DNA from: Allocoprobacillus halotolerans
GTDB taxonomy: Bacteria > Bacillota_I > Bacilli_A > Erysipelotrichales > Coprobacillaceae
Assembly: GCF_024399475.1 (NCBI RefSeq)
Contig: NZ_CP101620.1
Coordinates: 911,608 to 975,607, forward strand
Reading direction: 5' to 3'
Length of the DNA: 64,000 nt
Within the stretch, counting starts at the first letter, position 1. Every line of letters begins with the position of its first letter. The notes beneath the pieces were generated by a model. That model searched no databases and was not told the DNA's origin. It saw only the letters and a list, made by a program, of their open reading frames with translations. Of the stretch, positions 10,678 to 23,594 are shown one piece after another. The translations under genes were made by a program, and so were the position numbers.

Positions 10678-10731
10678 AACAATCGAGTAGGAGAAAATAA
10701 ATAATTTTATATTTATTTTCGACCTCTCACA

Positions 10732-10761
10732 CCACCGTACGTGCCGTTCGGCATACGGCGG
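10732..10761 (-). ncRNA. Group II intron domain V
   Basis: The catalytic hairpin of the intron. The two arms CCGCCGTA and TACGGTGG pair, with a bulge and GAACGGCAC in the middle, followed by TGTGAGAGGTCG and the AT-rich domain VI. Its presence with an intact maturase suggests that the intron could still splice. Confidence 0.75.
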
Positions 10762-10768
10762 TTTAAAT

Positions 10769-12085
10769 CTATACTGAAATATGTTTTAACTGATATTGGG
10801 CTACCATTGATGGTAGTCCTTTTCTATATAATAAATCATTAGTTATTCTTGTTTGAAGAAATGTACTTGCACATCTTGCATATGATTTTCGACTGTTTGC
10901 CCAAGTTTTAGCTTGCCATGGTAATGCCCCTAACTTTCTTAGTTGCTTTTCTCTATTTCCTATGGTTTTCCATTTCTTCCATAAGTACATACGTATCCTA
11001 AATCTTATTTGTGCATCTAGTTTTCTACAGACTTTTATAAAATTTCCAATACGGTAATAGTTAATCCACCCATTTACAAGTTGTCTTATCTTAAGTATTC
11101 TATATTCCCACGATACTGACCAACTTCTATTTGTTAGTTTCCTTAGTTTTGTTTGCAGTGTTGCGATAGATTTCTCATGTGGTTTTGCTTTCCACATAGA
11201 TGAAAAAGAGTCATAATAGAATCCAAATCCTAGATATTTAATATCATTAGGTTTGGAAACTTTACTTTTAGTCATATTTACTTTAAGTCCTAGTTTCTTT
11301 TCTATGAATTTACTAATGTTTTCCATTACTCTATCGGCGGCTTTACTGCTACCCACTAATATAATACAATCATCTGCATATCGTGTGAATCTTAGTCCTC
11401 GTGCTTCCATTTCCTTATCTAGTTCATTGAGAACTATGTTACTGAGTAGCGGACTTAGATTTCCACCTTGTGGTGTTCCTACGACTGACTCTTTATATTC
11501 ATTATCAATCATAATCCCGCTTACTAGAAACTTCCTAATTAGGGATACTATTTCTCCACTCTTTACATCTTTCATGACAAGTGAAATAAGTTTATCATGA
11601 TTAACTGTATCAAAGAACTTTTCTAGGTCTATATCTACTATCCACTGATAGCCTTCATTCATATATTCCAATGCTTTGATGATTGCCATTTCGCAACATC
11701 TATTTGGTCTAAATCCAAAACTATTGTCACTGAATATTGGTTCATAGATAGGTATTAACACTTGGGCTATGGCTTGTTGGACAAATCTATCAAGTACTGT
11801 TGGCACTCCTAGATTTCGTATTCCGCCATCGGGTTTGGGTATTTCTACTCTTCTCACAGGTTGTGGCTTATATGTCTTGTTTCGTATACTGTCCTTAATT
11901 TCTTCTAGATGTTTATCTAAATAGTCTTTAAGTTCAGCTACTTCCATTCCATCTACTCCACTTGCACCTTTGTTTCGTTTGACTTGTGTAAATGCTAGTT
12001 CTAGATTAGTATCACTAAGCATTTCCTCAAGCAATGTGTTATCAGTTTTCATATTTTCGTTACCTCCATTTCTTTCGCTATCCAT
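10769..12085 (-). CDS. ltrA: Group II intron reverse transcriptase/maturase
   Basis: About 438 residues from the ATG at 12085 (RBS GAAGGTGAG). It splices the intron RNA and copies it into new sites. RT motifs appear in order: KRNKGASGVDGM, RRVEIPKPDGGIRNLGVPT, FGFRPNRCCEMAI, VDIDLEKFFDTVNHDKL, GTPQGGNLSPLLSNIVLNELD, and the catalytic RYADDCIIL. The maturase X domain follows (WKAKPHEKS to GWINYYRIGN), and a C-terminal tail ends near KTWANSRKSYARCASTFLQ. No HNH endonuclease follows, which fits class C. The frame is intact, in contrast to many host genes here. Confidence 0.93.
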   Translation of the reverse strand: MDSERNGGNENMKTDNTLLEEMLSDTNLELAFTQVKRNKGASGVDGMEVAELKDYLDKHLEEIKDSIRNKTYKPQPVRRVEIPKPDGGIRNLGVPTVLDRFVQQAIAQVLIPIYEPIFSDNSFGFRPNRCCEMAIIKALEYMNEGYQWIVDIDLEKFFDTVNHDKLISLVMKDVKSGEIVSLIRKFLVSGIMIDNEYKESVVGTPQGGNLSPLLSNIVLNELDKEMEARGLRFTRYADDCIILVGSSKAADRVMENISKFIEKKLGLKVNMTKSKVSKPNDIKYLGFGFYYDSFSSMWKAKPHEKSIATLQTKLRKLTNRSWSVSWEYRILKIRQLVNGWINYYRIGNFIKVCRKLDAQIRFRIRMYLWKKWKTIGNREKQLRKLGALPWQAKTWANSRKSYARCASTFLQTRITNDLLYRKGLPSMVAQYQLKHISV

Positions 12086-12571
12086 TATACTCACCTTCCC
12101 TACATTCTTCTTTCGGGTCTTCTAGTGTACTCGTCTATCTCCACGGTTTCGTATAATGAAATCAATTCAAAATTCAATAACTGATAGATTTATTCAGTCC
12201 TTCGCTCCATGACCATTACAGTCACTTCCTTACTACTACGACTTCTGCTGACTTCTCACTATTCGTTGTTACTGCTGTATCGCTAGTGAGACCTCCCGGG
12301 ATAAGGTCATATCTCTTTCCTCCCATATATCCGCCACATTTACATATAATAGTCCTATTCCGCAACCTCTTATGACTTCGTGTTGTTTTGCACACTCGTC
12401 CCTATTATATGCCTGATGTGATTCGTGTTCCTCGGACCAGGACTTTGCCTCCATCTTCTTTCAGATTCCATCTCACGATAGACACCCTTGATATTGGCTA
12501 GTGGTTGGCAGTTGCGACATCGCCCCCACAGTGGACTTTCACCACCTAGATATATGCCATGCCCGGCATAC

Positions 12572-15230: not shown

Positions 15231-15984
15231 TTATACCTTTTTCACGATAACATTTTGACTTTGTAAATATTCCTCACTATCAAAAGGAATCTGTTGATCC
15301 GTAACAACATAAGACACTTCATGCGTAGGCAAAAGATTAACTAAGCCAACTTGCTGAAACTTTGATGATTCCGTGATCACAATAACATGATAAGCCTGTT
15401 TTGCCATATCTCTTACCGTTTCACTACGCATATAATCATTACCAGTAAATCCTGATGCCTTAGAAAAACCATCTGCCCCAATAAAAAACTTATCTACAAA
15501 AAGGCTTCAACACATTTGCGTGTCATCGGTCCAACACAAACCTGTGCTTCTTTTTGATATTCACCACCAAGTAAAATAATACGTACCTGTGAATATTGAC
15601 GAATAAACTCAGAGATAAAGGCTGAATTGGTAATAATTGTGACATCTTTTTTTGTCATAGCGATTTCTTGTGCCAATAATGCACAACAAGAACCTGATTC
15701 AATCATAATCGTTTCCCCATCTTCTATTAACTGACAAGCAGCTTTCGCAAGTTTCTGTTTGACATCATAATGATAAGCCAAACGATTATTCATATCATCC
15801 TGACCATTAAGAGTCGCAAAACCATGTTCTCTAATAATTAAACCTTTTTTCTCCAACAAATCTAAATCTTTACGAATTGTTACTTGTGAAACTTTTAAAA
15901 GTTCAGAAAATTCATTCACTTCTACTTTTTTCTTTCCGTCAACAATTCTAATATCTGTGTCTGTCTAACTTCCATTTTTTTCAT
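15231..15984 (-). CDS. DeoR/GlpR-family transcriptional regulator (two frameshifts)
   Basis: About 251 residues if repaired. The start is the ATG at 15984 (RBS AAAGGTG; MKKMEVRQTQILELLTERKK). The frame breaks at a T6 run at 15926-15931 (plus strand), continues as VEVNEFSELLKVSQVTIRKD with the HTH, and breaks again near 15496 (AFF then VDKFFIGADGFSKASGFTGN). The sensor domain shows ESGSCCALLAQEI and IILLGGEYQ, and the end is DQQIPFDSEEYLQSQNVIVKKV. DeoR regulators sense sugar phosphates. No target operon is adjacent. Each break is one missing base in a homopolymer. Confidence 0.75.
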
Positions 15985-16045
15985 ATCCATCACCTTTATA
16001 CCTAGATTATCACAAACAAGTTTCAAACGCAACTTTATATCTTAA

Positions 16046-16075
16046 AGAAAAAAGCAATCCGAAGATTACTTTTCA
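16046..16075 (-). terminator. Terminator of the small iron-controlled transcript
   Basis: On the minus strand AAAAGTAATC-TTCG-GATTGCTTTT followed by TTC, a stable UUCG tetraloop hairpin. It ends a transcript of about 250 nt that begins near 16297. Confidence 0.75.
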
Positions 16076-16134
16076 TCATACACAAAATGTGTTGTTAAAG
16101 GATGAAACAATGATAGTCACAAGTATGTCTAGAT

Positions 16135-16194
16135 TTAATCTGGCTTATATAATCTAAAATGACGATGAATAGGAGTATGAGGGCGACTATGCAT
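16135..16194 (-). CDS. Putative 19-residue His/Pro/Arg-rich peptide
   Basis: A short frame MHSRPHTPIHRHFRLYKPD with AAGGA nine bases before the ATG. It contains four His, three Arg and three Pro. It is the only frame I found with a good ribosome site in a transcript that has a strong promoter (16304-16331), two overlapping GTTAG-N6-CTAAC operators and a UUCG terminator. Both the peptide and the RNA itself could be the product. A His-rich micro-peptide in an iron regulon suggests metal binding, but that is an inference. The frame may be fortuitous and the locus an iron-responsive sRNA. Confidence 0.4.
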   Translation of the reverse strand: MHSRPHTPIHRHFRLYKPD

Positions 16195-16244
16195 ATATTC
16201 AAGTCCTTGTTTTTATTATATATCTTACACGCTTAGATATATAG

Positions 16245-16294
16245 GTTAGTTTATGCTAACTTTAGTTGATAATTAATAGTTAGCTTTAACTAAC
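16245..16294 (-). promoter_or_regulatory. Two metal-regulator operators in front of the small transcript
   Basis: GTTAG-TTTATG-CTAAC (16245-16260) and GTTAG-CTTTAA-CTAAC (16279-16294), inverted repeats with identical 6-base spacing. The second covers the predicted transcription start. The same motif occurs before feoA (two copies) and before the ABC pair. Confidence 0.75.
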
Positions 16295-16303
16295 TCTATA
16301 ACT

Positions 16304-16331
16304 AGTATACTATATTATGTTGATTTGTCAA
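16304..16331 (-). promoter_or_regulatory. Promoter of the small iron-controlled transcript
   Basis: On the minus strand TTGACA and TATACT with 16 bases between them, a near-consensus sigma-A promoter. It points away from the feo accessory genes and into the short-peptide region. Confidence 0.75.
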
Positions 16332-16387: not shown

Positions 16388-16753
16388 TTATTTATCCATT
16401 ATAGATTGAATATGATAACCAGCTTCTTCTACCACATAATATAACTCTTGTTCATTGAGTTCTCGATCATATGATACAACAGCTAAGTGTGTATCTAAAT
16501 CAACTTTAGCACTTGCACCTTCAATAGAATTAATCGCCTTCATCACATGATGAACACAATTTTGACAATGCATCCCTTCAATTTCTAAAGTTTTCTTACC
16601 AATGATTGGAGATTGAAGTTTCTTTTCTTCAATGTCATAACTTTCATGACTTCCTCCACAACAAGGACTCTCACCTTTAAAATGTTTTAAGCTTCCTTTC
16701 AATGCCAAAGCCAATAAAACTACAACTATAATAATGATAATCGCATCAATCAT
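16388..16753 (-). CDS. Membrane-anchored heavy-metal-associated (HMA) domain protein
   Basis: 121 residues: an N-terminal membrane segment (MIDAIIIIIVVVLLALALKG), a linker with CCGG, then an HMA ferredoxin-like fold with metal-binding GMHCQNCVHHVM near residue 61. HMA domains carry Cu, Zn or related ions to transporters. It is the last gene of the feo operon and its start overlaps the preceding small membrane gene by 8 bases. As a tethered metallochaperone beside FeoB it is unusual. It could serve a general metal-trafficking role in the same operon. Confidence 0.8.
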   Translation of the reverse strand: MIDAIIIIIVVVLLALALKGSLKHFKGESPCCGGSHESYDIEEKKLQSPIIGKKTLEIEGMHCQNCVHHVMKAINSIEGASAKVDLDTHLAVVSYDRELNEQELYYVVEEAGYHIQSIMDK

Positions 16754-16904
16754 GTTGATCCCTTCTTTCTTGGAATTTTTGATCTTTGCGCATATTCAAT
16801 TTCTTCTTGAACTGTTGAAAACCTAAATAAGCCAACATGCCTATGATATACACAACAATAATAATGATAAACATATAAAACATTGATCCTGTTGAATTAC
16901 CCAT
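16746..16904 (-). CDS. Small single-pass membrane protein of the feo operon
   Basis: About 52 residues from MGNSTGSMFYMF (ATG 16904, RBS GAGAGGAA), with one membrane segment (FIIIIVVYIIGMLAYLGFQQ) and a basic, charged tail. A longer frame to 16934 has no ribosome site. It overlaps the gene before it and the HMA gene after it, so translation is coupled. Family not recognised. Position suggests an accessory subunit for FeoB. Confidence 0.55.
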   Translation of the reverse strand: MGNSTGSMFYMFIIIIVVYIIGMLAYLGFQQFKKKLNMRKDQKFQERRDQHD

Positions 16905-17091
16905 TGAGATGTTCCTCTCTTTTATCTGCATCATACATTTCTTTTAAACGACTTATATCACCGCATCCACTACATCCTGCGCAAATACCGTTACAGCCAT
17001 TTTTTGATGCATTTTTCTTTTTACGATAATGTTGAATCATAATCCATAAACAATAACTGGCAATCAATGCCAAAACAATTATATCCATCAT
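16897..17091 (-). CDS. FeoB-associated Cys-rich membrane protein
   Basis: About 64 residues from MMDIIVLALIASYCLWIMIQ (ATG 17091, RBS GGAAGGAG): one membrane segment followed by a basic stretch and the Cys-rich motif NGCNGICAGCSGCGDISR. This matches the FeoB-associated Cys-rich family found after feoB in Firmicutes, thought to help Fe(II) transfer at the cytosolic face. It follows feoB after a terminator hairpin, so it is probably expressed at a lower level from readthrough. Confidence 0.8.
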   Translation of the reverse strand: MMDIIVLALIASYCLWIMIQHYRKKKNASKNGCNGICAGCSGCGDISRLKEMYDADKREEHLNG

Positions 17092-17115
17092 ATCATTCAA
17101 CTCCTTCCATACGGT

Positions 17116-17144
17116 AAAACTGGACACTTTTAGTATCCAGTTTT
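17116..17144 (-). terminator. Attenuator between feoB and its accessory genes
   Basis: On the minus strand AAAACTGGA pairs with TCCAGTTTT around a short loop, followed by a weak T run. It lies 5 bases after the feoB stop and would reduce expression of the three small genes. Confidence 0.65.
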
Positions 17145-17148
17145 TATA

Positions 17149-19332
17149 CTATGAATTCACCTGAACAGAACGTCTTGCATAAACTTTCTGATTTTTATAA
17201 GGATCAGGTCTAAACAATAAGAATAATAGCACAGCTGCTAAGACAAATGCAATAGCTGTCCAAATACCAAATACACCTGTTACAACAAATGTTCCAATTT
17301 GATAAATGCATAAGCATACAACATAAGCAAAGACATTTTGGAAAATAATTGCAAACCAGAACCATTTTCTAGACTGCATTTGTTGTGCCATTGTTGCGAT
17401 AGCTGCAAGACATGGAGAATCTAACATATTGAAAATCAAGAATGATAAAGCTGATAATGTTGTTGGGAACCATGCATGAACACCTTGCGCAACGTTCATA
17501 GCATCTTCTACGTCACCTGCCACATTCGCAAGAACTCCCATTGTAGAAACAATGGCTTCTTTAGCACTGAATCCTGAAAGCGAAGCAGCTACTGCCTGCC
17601 AATTTCCAAAACCTAATGGAGCAAAGATTGGCGCAATCAATCCAGCAATAAGTGCTAATAAACTATCACCACTATCTTCAACCATACCAAATGTACCATC
17701 TGCAAAGCCATAACCTTCTAAGAACCAAATCACAACACATGCCAAGAATAAGATTGTACCTGCTTTAATCAAGAATCCTTTTAATCTTTCCCACACATGT
17801 AATAAAACAGTTTTCACTGATGGAATATGATATTGAGGTAATTCCATGACAAATGGAGCAGGTTTTCCTGAGAAAGGTTTTGTTTTCTTTAAGATAATTG
17901 CCGCAACAAGGACTGCAACAATTCCTAAGAAATACATCATAGGTGCAATCAATGCACTTTCTGCATAACCTGCAACTTCACCAGCAATAACACCACCCAT
18001 TAGTGAAATAACTGGAAGTTTGGCACCACAAGGAATGAAAGTTGCTGTCATAATTGTTAAACGACGATCATTATCTTGTTCAATTGTTTTAGATGCCATG
18101 ATTCCAGGAATACCACATCCTGAAGAAATTAATAACGGAATAAAGCTTTTTCCAGACAAACCAAAATGTCTAAAGACTCTGTCCATCACAAAAGCAATAC
18201 GCACCATATATCCACAATCTTCTAAGATAGATAAGAACAAGAACAAAATAGCCATCTGTGGTGCAAAGCCAAGCACTGCTCCTAATCCACCAATAATGCC
18301 ATCGACAACCAAACCAGTGACAATATCACCAGCACCGATATTCCCTAAAAACGCGGTAACGGCATCTTGAATCGCAACTACAAAGACATCATTTGTCCAA
18401 TCAGTCACCCAAGTTCCAACTGTTGTGACTGATACATAATAAACTAAAAACATCACAGCTATAAAAATAGGAATACCTAAAATACGATTTGTAACAATCT
18501 TATCAATTTTATCAGATATAGTTAATTTTTCTCCACCTTTTTTCACAGTAGTGGAAATAATCTTTTGAATAAATTGATAACGCTCATCTGTCACAATACT
18601 TTCCATATCATCATCATGTTTCTTTTCTAATGCTTGACGCTTTTCATCAATAACATTTTGATCAGAAATCTTTGATTGTAATTTTTCAACGACTTGACTA
18701 TCATTTTCTAATAGTTTAATCGCATACCATCTTTTTTTATCTGCACTTATAGATGCAGGTAATTGATTTTCTACTTCAGTAATCGCTTTTTCTAAATCAG
18801 TTGAGAATATATCTTTTGGTAAAGATACATCTTTTTGACGAGCCACTTTCACGGCTTCCTCAATTAAAGCATCTAATCCAGTTTGTTTTAATGCTGAAGT
18901 TTCAATAATTGGACAATTCAACAACATAGATAGACGTTTAACATCAATTTTAATATTTCTCTTTTTCAATAAATCTGCCATATTTAACGCAATCACAACT
19001 GGTACACCTGTTTCAATCAATTGTGTTGTTAAATAAAGGTTTCTTTCAATATTAGTTGCATCAACCAAATCAATAATCACATCAGGGTTTTCATTTAAAA
19101 TATAATCACGACTGACAACTTCTTCTAAAGTATAAGGTGAAAGAGAATAAATACCAGGTAAATCTGTAATGATAATATTTTCATCTTTACGTTTTCCTTT
19201 TAACTTCCCTTCTTTTTTCTCTACGGTTACTCCAGGCCAGTTTCCAACATATTGATTTGCCCCTGTTAAAGCATTGAACATTGTTGTTTTCCCACAGTTA
19301 GGATTTCCTGCAAGAGCAATTTTTATATTCAT
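17149..19332 (-). CDS. feoB: Ferrous iron transporter FeoB
   Basis: About 727 residues from MNIKIALAGNPNCGKTTMFN (ATG 19332; RBS GGGAGG). The cytosolic G domain has G1 GNPNCGKTT, G3 DLPGIYSLSP near 60 and G4 NMAD near 120, followed by a helical GDI region and a membrane domain with gate motifs (SGCGIPGIMASKTIEQ near residue 400, PCGAKLPV near 435, FSAKEAIVSTMGVLAN near 580). It imports Fe(II) under anaerobic conditions. It is encoded with two FeoA proteins upstream and small metal-binding membrane proteins downstream, under a promoter with two metal-regulator operators. Confidence 0.96.
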   Translation of the reverse strand: MNIKIALAGNPNCGKTTMFNALTGANQYVGNWPGVTVEKKEGKLKGKRKDENIIITDLPGIYSLSPYTLEEVVSRDYILNENPDVIIDLVDATNIERNLYLTTQLIETGVPVVIALNMADLLKKRNIKIDVKRLSMLLNCPIIETSALKQTGLDALIEEAVKVARQKDVSLPKDIFSTDLEKAITEVENQLPASISADKKRWYAIKLLENDSQVVEKLQSKISDQNVIDEKRQALEKKHDDDMESIVTDERYQFIQKIISTTVKKGGEKLTISDKIDKIVTNRILGIPIFIAVMFLVYYVSVTTVGTWVTDWTNDVFVVAIQDAVTAFLGNIGAGDIVTGLVVDGIIGGLGAVLGFAPQMAILFLFLSILEDCGYMVRIAFVMDRVFRHFGLSGKSFIPLLISSGCGIPGIMASKTIEQDNDRRLTIMTATFIPCGAKLPVISLMGGVIAGEVAGYAESALIAPMMYFLGIVAVLVAAIILKKTKPFSGKPAPFVMELPQYHIPSVKTVLLHVWERLKGFLIKAGTILFLACVVIWFLEGYGFADGTFGMVEDSGDSLLALIAGLIAPIFAPLGFGNWQAVAASLSGFSAKEAIVSTMGVLANVAGDVEDAMNVAQGVHAWFPTTLSALSFLIFNMLDSPCLAAIATMAQQMQSRKWFWFAIIFQNVFAYVVCLCIYQIGTFVVTGVFGIWTAIAFVLAAVLLFLLFRPDPYKNQKVYARRSVQVNS

Positions 19333-19346
19333 ATCTTCATACCTCC

Positions 19347-19565
19347 CTATTTTACTTGTACACATTGCGCATCCATTTTTCTTACAGACAATTCATAACC
19401 TCTGACTGTAATTTCAACCGGATCACCTAAAGGAGCTACTTTTCTAATATATAAATCTGTTCCTTTTGTGATTCCCATATCCATGATGCGTCGTTTATAA
19501 GCACTATCCCCATCAATCTTTGTGACAGTGACTGTGCTTCCTACTTTTGCTTCACTTAAATTCAT
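19347..19565 (-). CDS. feoA: FeoA-domain protein (second copy)
   Basis: 72 residues with an SH3-like FeoA fold: MNLSEAKVGSTVTVTKIDGD, RRIMDMGITKGTDLYIRKVA, and DPVEITVRGYELSVRK. FeoA is a small cytosolic partner that helps FeoB iron uptake. It lies between the first feoA copy (35 bases away) and feoB, whose start is 15 bases downstream. Confidence 0.92.
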   Translation of the reverse strand: MNLSEAKVGSTVTVTKIDGDSAYKRRIMDMGITKGTDLYIRKVAPLGDPVEITVRGYELSVRKMDAQCVQVK

Positions 19566-19600
19566 TTGTTATCTCTCCTTTCAATCTATGCATATATCAG

Positions 19601-19813
19601 CTATACCATAATATGACGTGCCATCTCTTTATTAATCGCAACACGTGAATCTTTAATATTAACAATCACATTTCCACTAATAGTTGATAAAACTGTAATT
19701 TCACTGCCAGCTACAAAACCAAGATTCTTTAAAAAACGTCTTGTTTCTTCACTACCACCAATCCTGCGAATTGTATTCACTTCTCCAATACCTACTAATG
19801 TTAATGGCATCAT
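19601..19813 (-). CDS. feoA: FeoA-domain protein (first copy)
   Basis: About 70 residues from MMPLTLVGIGEVNTIRRIGG (ATG 19813 or 19810, with GGAAGG upstream). FeoA fold: RRFLKNLGFVAGSEITVLST and GNVIVNIKDSRVAINKEMAR. It differs clearly from the second copy, so this is not a recent duplication. It heads the feo operon, with operators at 19830-19845 and 19864-19879 between promoter and start codon. Confidence 0.9.
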   Translation of the reverse strand: MMPLTLVGIGEVNTIRRIGGSEETRRFLKNLGFVAGSEITVLSTISGNVIVNIKDSRVAINKEMARHIMV

Positions 19814-19829
19814 ACTCATCCCTTCCTAA

Positions 19830-19879
19830 ATTAGCAAAAGCTAACTCTTAATTAAAAATATAAGTTAGTTGATACTAAC
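19830..19879 (-). promoter_or_regulatory. Two metal-regulator operators before feoA
   Basis: ATTAG-CAAAAG-CTAAC (19830-19845) and GTTAG-TTGATA-CTAAC (19864-19879). They share spacing and arms with the sites near 16.25 kb and 23.58 kb. Position downstream of the promoter fits repression by a metal-bound regulator. Confidence 0.78.
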
Positions 19880-23578: not shown

Positions 23579-23594
23579 GTTAGTCAAAGCTAAC
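23579..23594 (-). promoter_or_regulatory. Metal-regulator operator before the ABC pair
   Basis: GTTAG-TCAAAG-CTAAC, the same arms and 6-base spacing as the operators at 16.25 and 19.85 kb. It lies about 20 bases before the first ABC start codon and so places the transporter in the presumed iron regulon. Confidence 0.72.

Follow-up and report, generated by a model that had tools for sequence, protein, structure and literature searches.

A conserved, probably metal-repressed small RNA of Massilimicrobiota and relatives that most likely arose from a FeoB-associated gene

Small RNAs of the RyhB class (RyhB, PrrF, FsrA and IsrR) belong to the regulon of an iron repressor, whose site lies at their promoters, and they expose an unpaired CU-rich region suited to ribosome-binding sites. 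In a 2022 review, RyhB analogues appear under Fur and RsaC under MntR, and the entry for iron-sensing DtxR reads "none reported" (PMC9294342). RsaC of Staphylococcus aureus is cut by RNase III from the mntABC mRNA and responds to manganese (PMC9438474). An origin of sRNAs from pseudogenes has been proposed in Sodalis (PMC7067036), and a study of Feo systems called the translation of FeoB-associated Cys-rich ORFs, which belong to the widespread family PF12669, an unanswered question (PMC8749426).

The RNA described here, on which no publication was found in the open-access literature, shares with the RyhB class a predicted place in an iron-repressor regulon, a putative repressor site at the promoter and an open CU-rich region. 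It differs in that its box looks DtxR-like and not like a Fur box, its sequence is unrelated, it has a coding ancestry and its targets are candidates only. RsaC is the nearest in logic, as an sRNA 3' of a metal-importer operon governed by a DtxR-family repressor, MntR (PMC9438474). The present RNA, in contrast, is about 250 nt long, adjoins feo and has its own predicted promoter and boxes, so release by processing is not needed. The FeoB-associated Cys-rich genes of two related genomes (G018 and G022) are homologous to its core and occupy the same position at the operon end, but at the RNA locus the frame is destroyed and only the RNA is conserved. The locus thus bears both on sRNA control by iron-sensing DtxR and on the translation of FeoB-associated ORFs.

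The features of the locus, given as positions in the window (the whole 64-kb stretch of DNA analysed, from the genome here called G000), are as follows.

16304–16331, minus strand: promoter TTGACA-16 bp-TATACT, with 11/12 consensus matches, the top-scoring site within the window
16044–16296, minus strand: predicted non-coding RNA of about 253 nt, its 5' end placed from the -10 element
16279–16294, minus strand: operator box 1, GTTAGTTAAAGCTAAC, at about +3 to +18, conserved in the g1 and g8 homologues
16245–16260, minus strand: operator box 2, GTTAGCATAAACTAAC, 34 bp from box 1
16217–16243, minus strand: 5' hairpin UAUAUAUCU...AGAUAUAUA from predicted folds, with a similar hairpin in G002, G003 and G004
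16113–16194, minus strand: conserved core domain (covariance model R1), from the covariance model search
16183–16190, minus strand: 5' arm of the covarying stem, AUAGUCGC, from covariation
16164–16182, minus strand: presumed seed CCUCAUACUCCUAUUCAUC, 19 nt, anti-Shine-Dalgarno-like, identical in 8/9 homologues
16113–16120, minus strand: 3' arm of the covarying stem, GUGACUAU, from covariation
16135–16194, minus strand: 19-codon frame MHSRPHTPIHRHFRLYKPD, with its ATG at 16194, judged non-conserved as a gene
16107–16208, minus strand: relic frame of a FeoB-associated Cys-rich gene (containing VALILLFIVILDYISQIKSRHTC), from a protein search
16044–16071, minus strand: UUCG intrinsic terminator, arms AAGTAATC and GATTGCTT plus a T-run, from sequence and fold
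15494–15990, minus strand: DeoR-family regulator gene downstream of the RNA, frameshifted in the G000 assembly
16388–19819, minus strand: feo operon upstream of the RNA (feoA, feoA, feoB, FeoB_associated and an HMA-domain membrane protein)
19830–19879, minus strand: feo promoter boxes GTTAGTATCAACTAAC and GTTAGCTTTTGCTAAT, from a box search

The first-pass annotation had described, without giving a strand, a near-consensus promoter, two operators at the start, an AAGGA-supported 19-codon frame and a UUCG terminator, and all four were recovered. The -35 element starts at 16331 and the -10 element ends at 16304, which places the whole unit on the minus strand; both operators are palindromes (16294–16279 and 16260–16245), the ATG of the frame follows AAGGA by nine bases, and the terminator (16071–16044) carries its T-run. 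As in the RyhB class, the locus has the layout of a non-coding RNA with a promoter and a terminator of its own, as predicted from its sequence. The fold energy of the predicted RNA was 3.9 standard deviations better than that of shuffled sequences (n=200). In Massilimicrobiota timonensis the RNA is predicted to be shorter, about 209 nt.

A DNA search of 60 related genomes detected strong homologues both within the genus (three genomes) and in other genera (several genomes), with matches beyond chance at E values of 1.2e-86, 8.1e-70, 6.9e-20 and about 2e-19. The core-domain covariance model located RNA copies in G000, G002, G003 and G004 (g1), in G034, G011 and G026 (g8), in G009 (g6) and in G010 (g7), that is, in nine genomes of four genera comprising Massilimicrobiota and relatives; among the carriers are Massilimicrobiota timonensis An13, Massilimicrobiota sp. 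An134, an uncultured Massilimicrobiota and Erysipelotrichaceae MAGs. Matches below about 30 bits (L043–L052) were left out of this count. The model also matched inside the two intact genes of G018 and G022. Across the carriers the promoter, one or two GTTAGN6CTAAC boxes, the 19-nt core, the covarying stem and the terminator are kept, the promoter being TTGACA or TTGGCA in the equivalent position in 9/9 homologues. No copy was found outside the family among 395 genomes of the class, which confines the RNA to part of one family, and no Rfam family was matched by the RNA at the gathering score, the window giving only pieces of a group II intron. A further genome, G025, carries a shortened core after its feo operon (L061 7525–7583) without feo-type boxes; by its appearance this copy is a decaying sRNA.

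The boxes point to the kind of control that would act on the RNA. The two boxes at the feoA promoter are 34 bp apart, a spacing identical to that at the RNA promoter, and they share the GTTAGN6CTAAC pattern, so that an operator of the cell's presumed iron regulon is found at the RNA promoter, as in the RyhB class; in G003, G009 and G010 a single box is present at the RNA. The boxes appear DtxR-like and not Fur-like, and because those of the RNA match those preceding feoAAB, the RNA is likely to be controlled by a metal repressor of the DtxR/MntR type, and the metal is probably iron. One DtxR-family gene (Fe_dep_repr_C) was found in G000, and we infer its product to be the iron-dependent protein that binds these boxes. 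That protein is also what speaks for manganese as the metal sensed: the only Fe_dep_repr_C protein found, it adjoins a ZIP-like transporter and has an MntR-like size. Identical boxes precede feoAAB, the ferrous iron importer, which argues for iron, but they are not decisive since some Firmicutes Feo systems may transport manganese (PMC8749426). We regard a manganese-sensing sRNA as rather unlikely.

In G000 the same box also lies ahead of an ABC exporter pair (window position 23579), of a peroxiredoxin gene and of a further ABC locus. The copy at G000:C1:1847027 (L079) is an exact GTTAGTTAAAGCTAAC box upstream of the peroxiredoxin gene, which is followed by an AhpF-like reductase gene; this arrangement suggests a link between the responses to metal and to peroxide. 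A pair of boxes 30 bp apart, resembling the feo promoter, lies upstream of an ABC exporter gene at G000:C1:2821508-2821553 (L082), and a candidate box GTTAGATATAGCTAAC, perhaps a chance occurrence, lies directly upstream of the enolase gene at G000:C1:1550100 (L077). Seven identical GTTAGTCACTGCTAAC sites mimic the box inside copies of an IS3-like transposase (L070, L075) and were discounted.

Downstream of the RNA, on the same strand, the DeoR-family gene is a constant neighbour in every sRNA-bearing genome examined, an arrangement that would suit a cis-acting leader (attenuator) of that gene. This function is quite improbable: a strong terminator ends the RNA, the predicted folds offer no alternative antiterminator, and the RNA's open, CU-rich conserved core resembles that of trans-acting sRNAs. 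Moreover, the DeoR gene also follows the intact coding gene of G022, which implies that the adjacency was inherited. The RNA is kept beside DeoR in G003 and G011 although feo is not adjacent there, and this retention marks it as an independent unit. The DeoR-family gene is intact in the relatives although frameshifted in G000, where mnmG and the genes for asparagine synthase and an aldo/keto reductase also appear broken; indel errors in the G000 assembly are a likely cause.

Within the RNA, the motif CCTCATACTCCTATTCATC is invariant in 8/9 copies, the G010 variant being CTCAACTCCTATTCATC, and in ViennaRNA ensembles the core was the most unpaired 19-nt stretch in 7/9 RNAs. It is enclosed by the stem AUAGUYRC/GURACUAU, in which 93.9% of the cells were paired and two-sided changes occurred in 5/8 pairs. 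The covariation score of this stem was reached by 0/500 shuffles, and slid controls were worse; the alignment was fitted to the tested structure, which biases the result in its favour, and coding genes make up 2 of its 12 rows.

The first-pass annotation had left the choice between a metal-binding micro-peptide, an sRNA or both, and had named conservation in relatives among its checks. The sRNA half of that proposal gained from the promoter, boxes, terminator, covariation and open core, and the RNA sequence was conserved in nine genomes; the start codon and frame of the peptide were not. A His-rich, metal-binding micro-peptide MHSRPHTPIHRHFRLYKPD that functions alone or alongside the RNA could draw on the AAGGA ahead of its ATG, on a 42-codon ATG-started version in G004 and on the motif PHTPIHRH, which is readable in most homologues, but solely through invariant core nucleotides. 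Its ATG is missing in at least five homologues (G002, G003, G034, G011 and G009), indels change its C-terminus in nearly all of them, and the core nucleotides are invariant at every codon position, unlike coding sequence. The missing starts and the indels rule the peptide out as a conserved gene, and we give a functional micro-peptide very little credence. Since neither frame nor start is conserved while core, stem, promoter and terminator are, the locus is, as far as sequence can tell, a structured non-coding RNA.

The RNA nevertheless retains traces of a gene, which the first-pass annotation had missed. Its relic frame matched the G018 protein at 47% identity across 34 aa (E 0.0057), and the order after feoB in G022 is an intact FeoB-associated Cys-rich gene of 57 codons (PF12669), a near-identical terminator and the same DeoR gene. 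At the DNA level, the similarity of the G022 gene surpassed 500/500 codon shuffles for six of the nine RNAs (those of the G000 window, G004, G002, G003, G034 and G011); 2/500 shuffles did as well for the G026 RNA, and for the G009 or G010 RNA alone the similarity was within chance (500 codon shuffles). The G018 gene was closer, surpassing all 500 codon shuffles for 9/9 RNAs, and when it was recoded synonymously its score was never reached for 7/9 RNAs, so the match exceeds what the amino acids require. Because FeoB fragments share only about 46% identity between G018 and G000, silent sites between these genomes should be saturated; that the G018 gene is similar to the RNAs all the same makes this gene seem constrained as RNA.

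Continued translation of a degenerate Cys-rich peptide in the relic frame, which in G000 has a 45-residue open stretch matching the G018 protein, is hardly credible, since that frame has no ATG or GTG start, its sole TTG is poorly spaced from AAGGA, three stops interrupt it in G002, it is broken after about 16 codons in G004 and the Cys motif is gone. Judged against PF12669, the RNA locus shares descent with the family; the intact ORF with a transmembrane helix and a Cys motif has given way to a broken or startless frame in which that motif is lost. As PF12669 is widespread (PMC8749426), we take the coding state to be ancestral, and we consider a decayed feo-operon gene of the FeoB-associated Cys-rich type to be the most likely origin of the RNA.

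In a FeoB tree, G018 and G022 grouped with G009, G010 and G025, separate from g1 and g8. The RNA form is present on both sides of this split, with which a single origin and repeated origins are both compatible. We tentatively propose, as something short of an even chance, a double life, in which the mRNA of the FeoB-associated gene already bore the seed and its RNA role survived the loss of the protein in Massilimicrobiota and relatives, becoming an iron-responsive sRNA under DtxR-type control. In G018 such an RNA may be processed from the operon mRNA, as RsaC is. The living genomes form a series, from an intact gene (G022) through a gene with the seed (G018) to a pure RNA (nine genomes), which offers a rare traceable origin of a bacterial sRNA; if the double-life reading is true, other "FeoB-associated" ORFs could conceal RNAs.

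The core is complementary to AGGAG-type sites, which makes a trans-acting repressor of translation the natural model. The first-pass annotation had proposed target prediction, which yielded no conserved target in the sample covered: duplexes were ranked for 1003 genes in 20-kb stretches, about 56% of G000, and two 12-nt patterns searched in the nine genomes recovered no recurrent gene. A search for the 14-nt complement of the core matched only the RNA locus itself. In G000 the core can form 11 perfect pairs at the ribosome-binding site of a DUF362 protein with 2x[4Fe-4S], and it pairs over the start codon of a 2x[4Fe-4S] aldo/keto reductase in G000 and G002; both were rejected as targets because the sites are not kept in other carriers, that of the reductase being absent from G003 and others. 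Across ribosome-binding regions overall, the core bound no better than shuffled cores. Enrichment of Fe-S genes in G000 was equalled by 0/150 shuffled cores, a figure resting on only 7 motif-picked proteins, some of them not true Fe-S proteins; elsewhere it was not significant (p 0.10), some members having been chosen by the seed search itself, and we did not count these figures as evidence.

A metal-repressed, trans-acting, iron-sparing small regulatory RNA is, in our judgement, the best explanation of the locus and a probable one. Its conservation, structure, non-coding nature, shared boxes and homology to a coding gene were computed; beyond these we infer its transcription, the identity of the repressor and of the metal, its trans-acting mode and its targets. 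With ample metal (iron, possibly manganese), a repressor of the DtxR/MntR family would occupy both boxes over the start and shut the RNA promoter together with feoAAB. Under scarcity, an RNA of about 250 nt ending at the UUCG terminator would be made, exposing its CU-rich core in the loop of the covarying stem; this core would pair with target mRNAs, most likely those of iron-using proteins, at their ribosome-binding sites and block their translation, thereby sparing iron.

Two further observations concern the window. The final gene of the feo operon (16388–16753) consists of a FeoB_associated-like membrane segment fused to a heavy-metal-associated (HMA) domain, and positions 10682–12482 hold a group II intron together with the gene for its reverse transcriptase.
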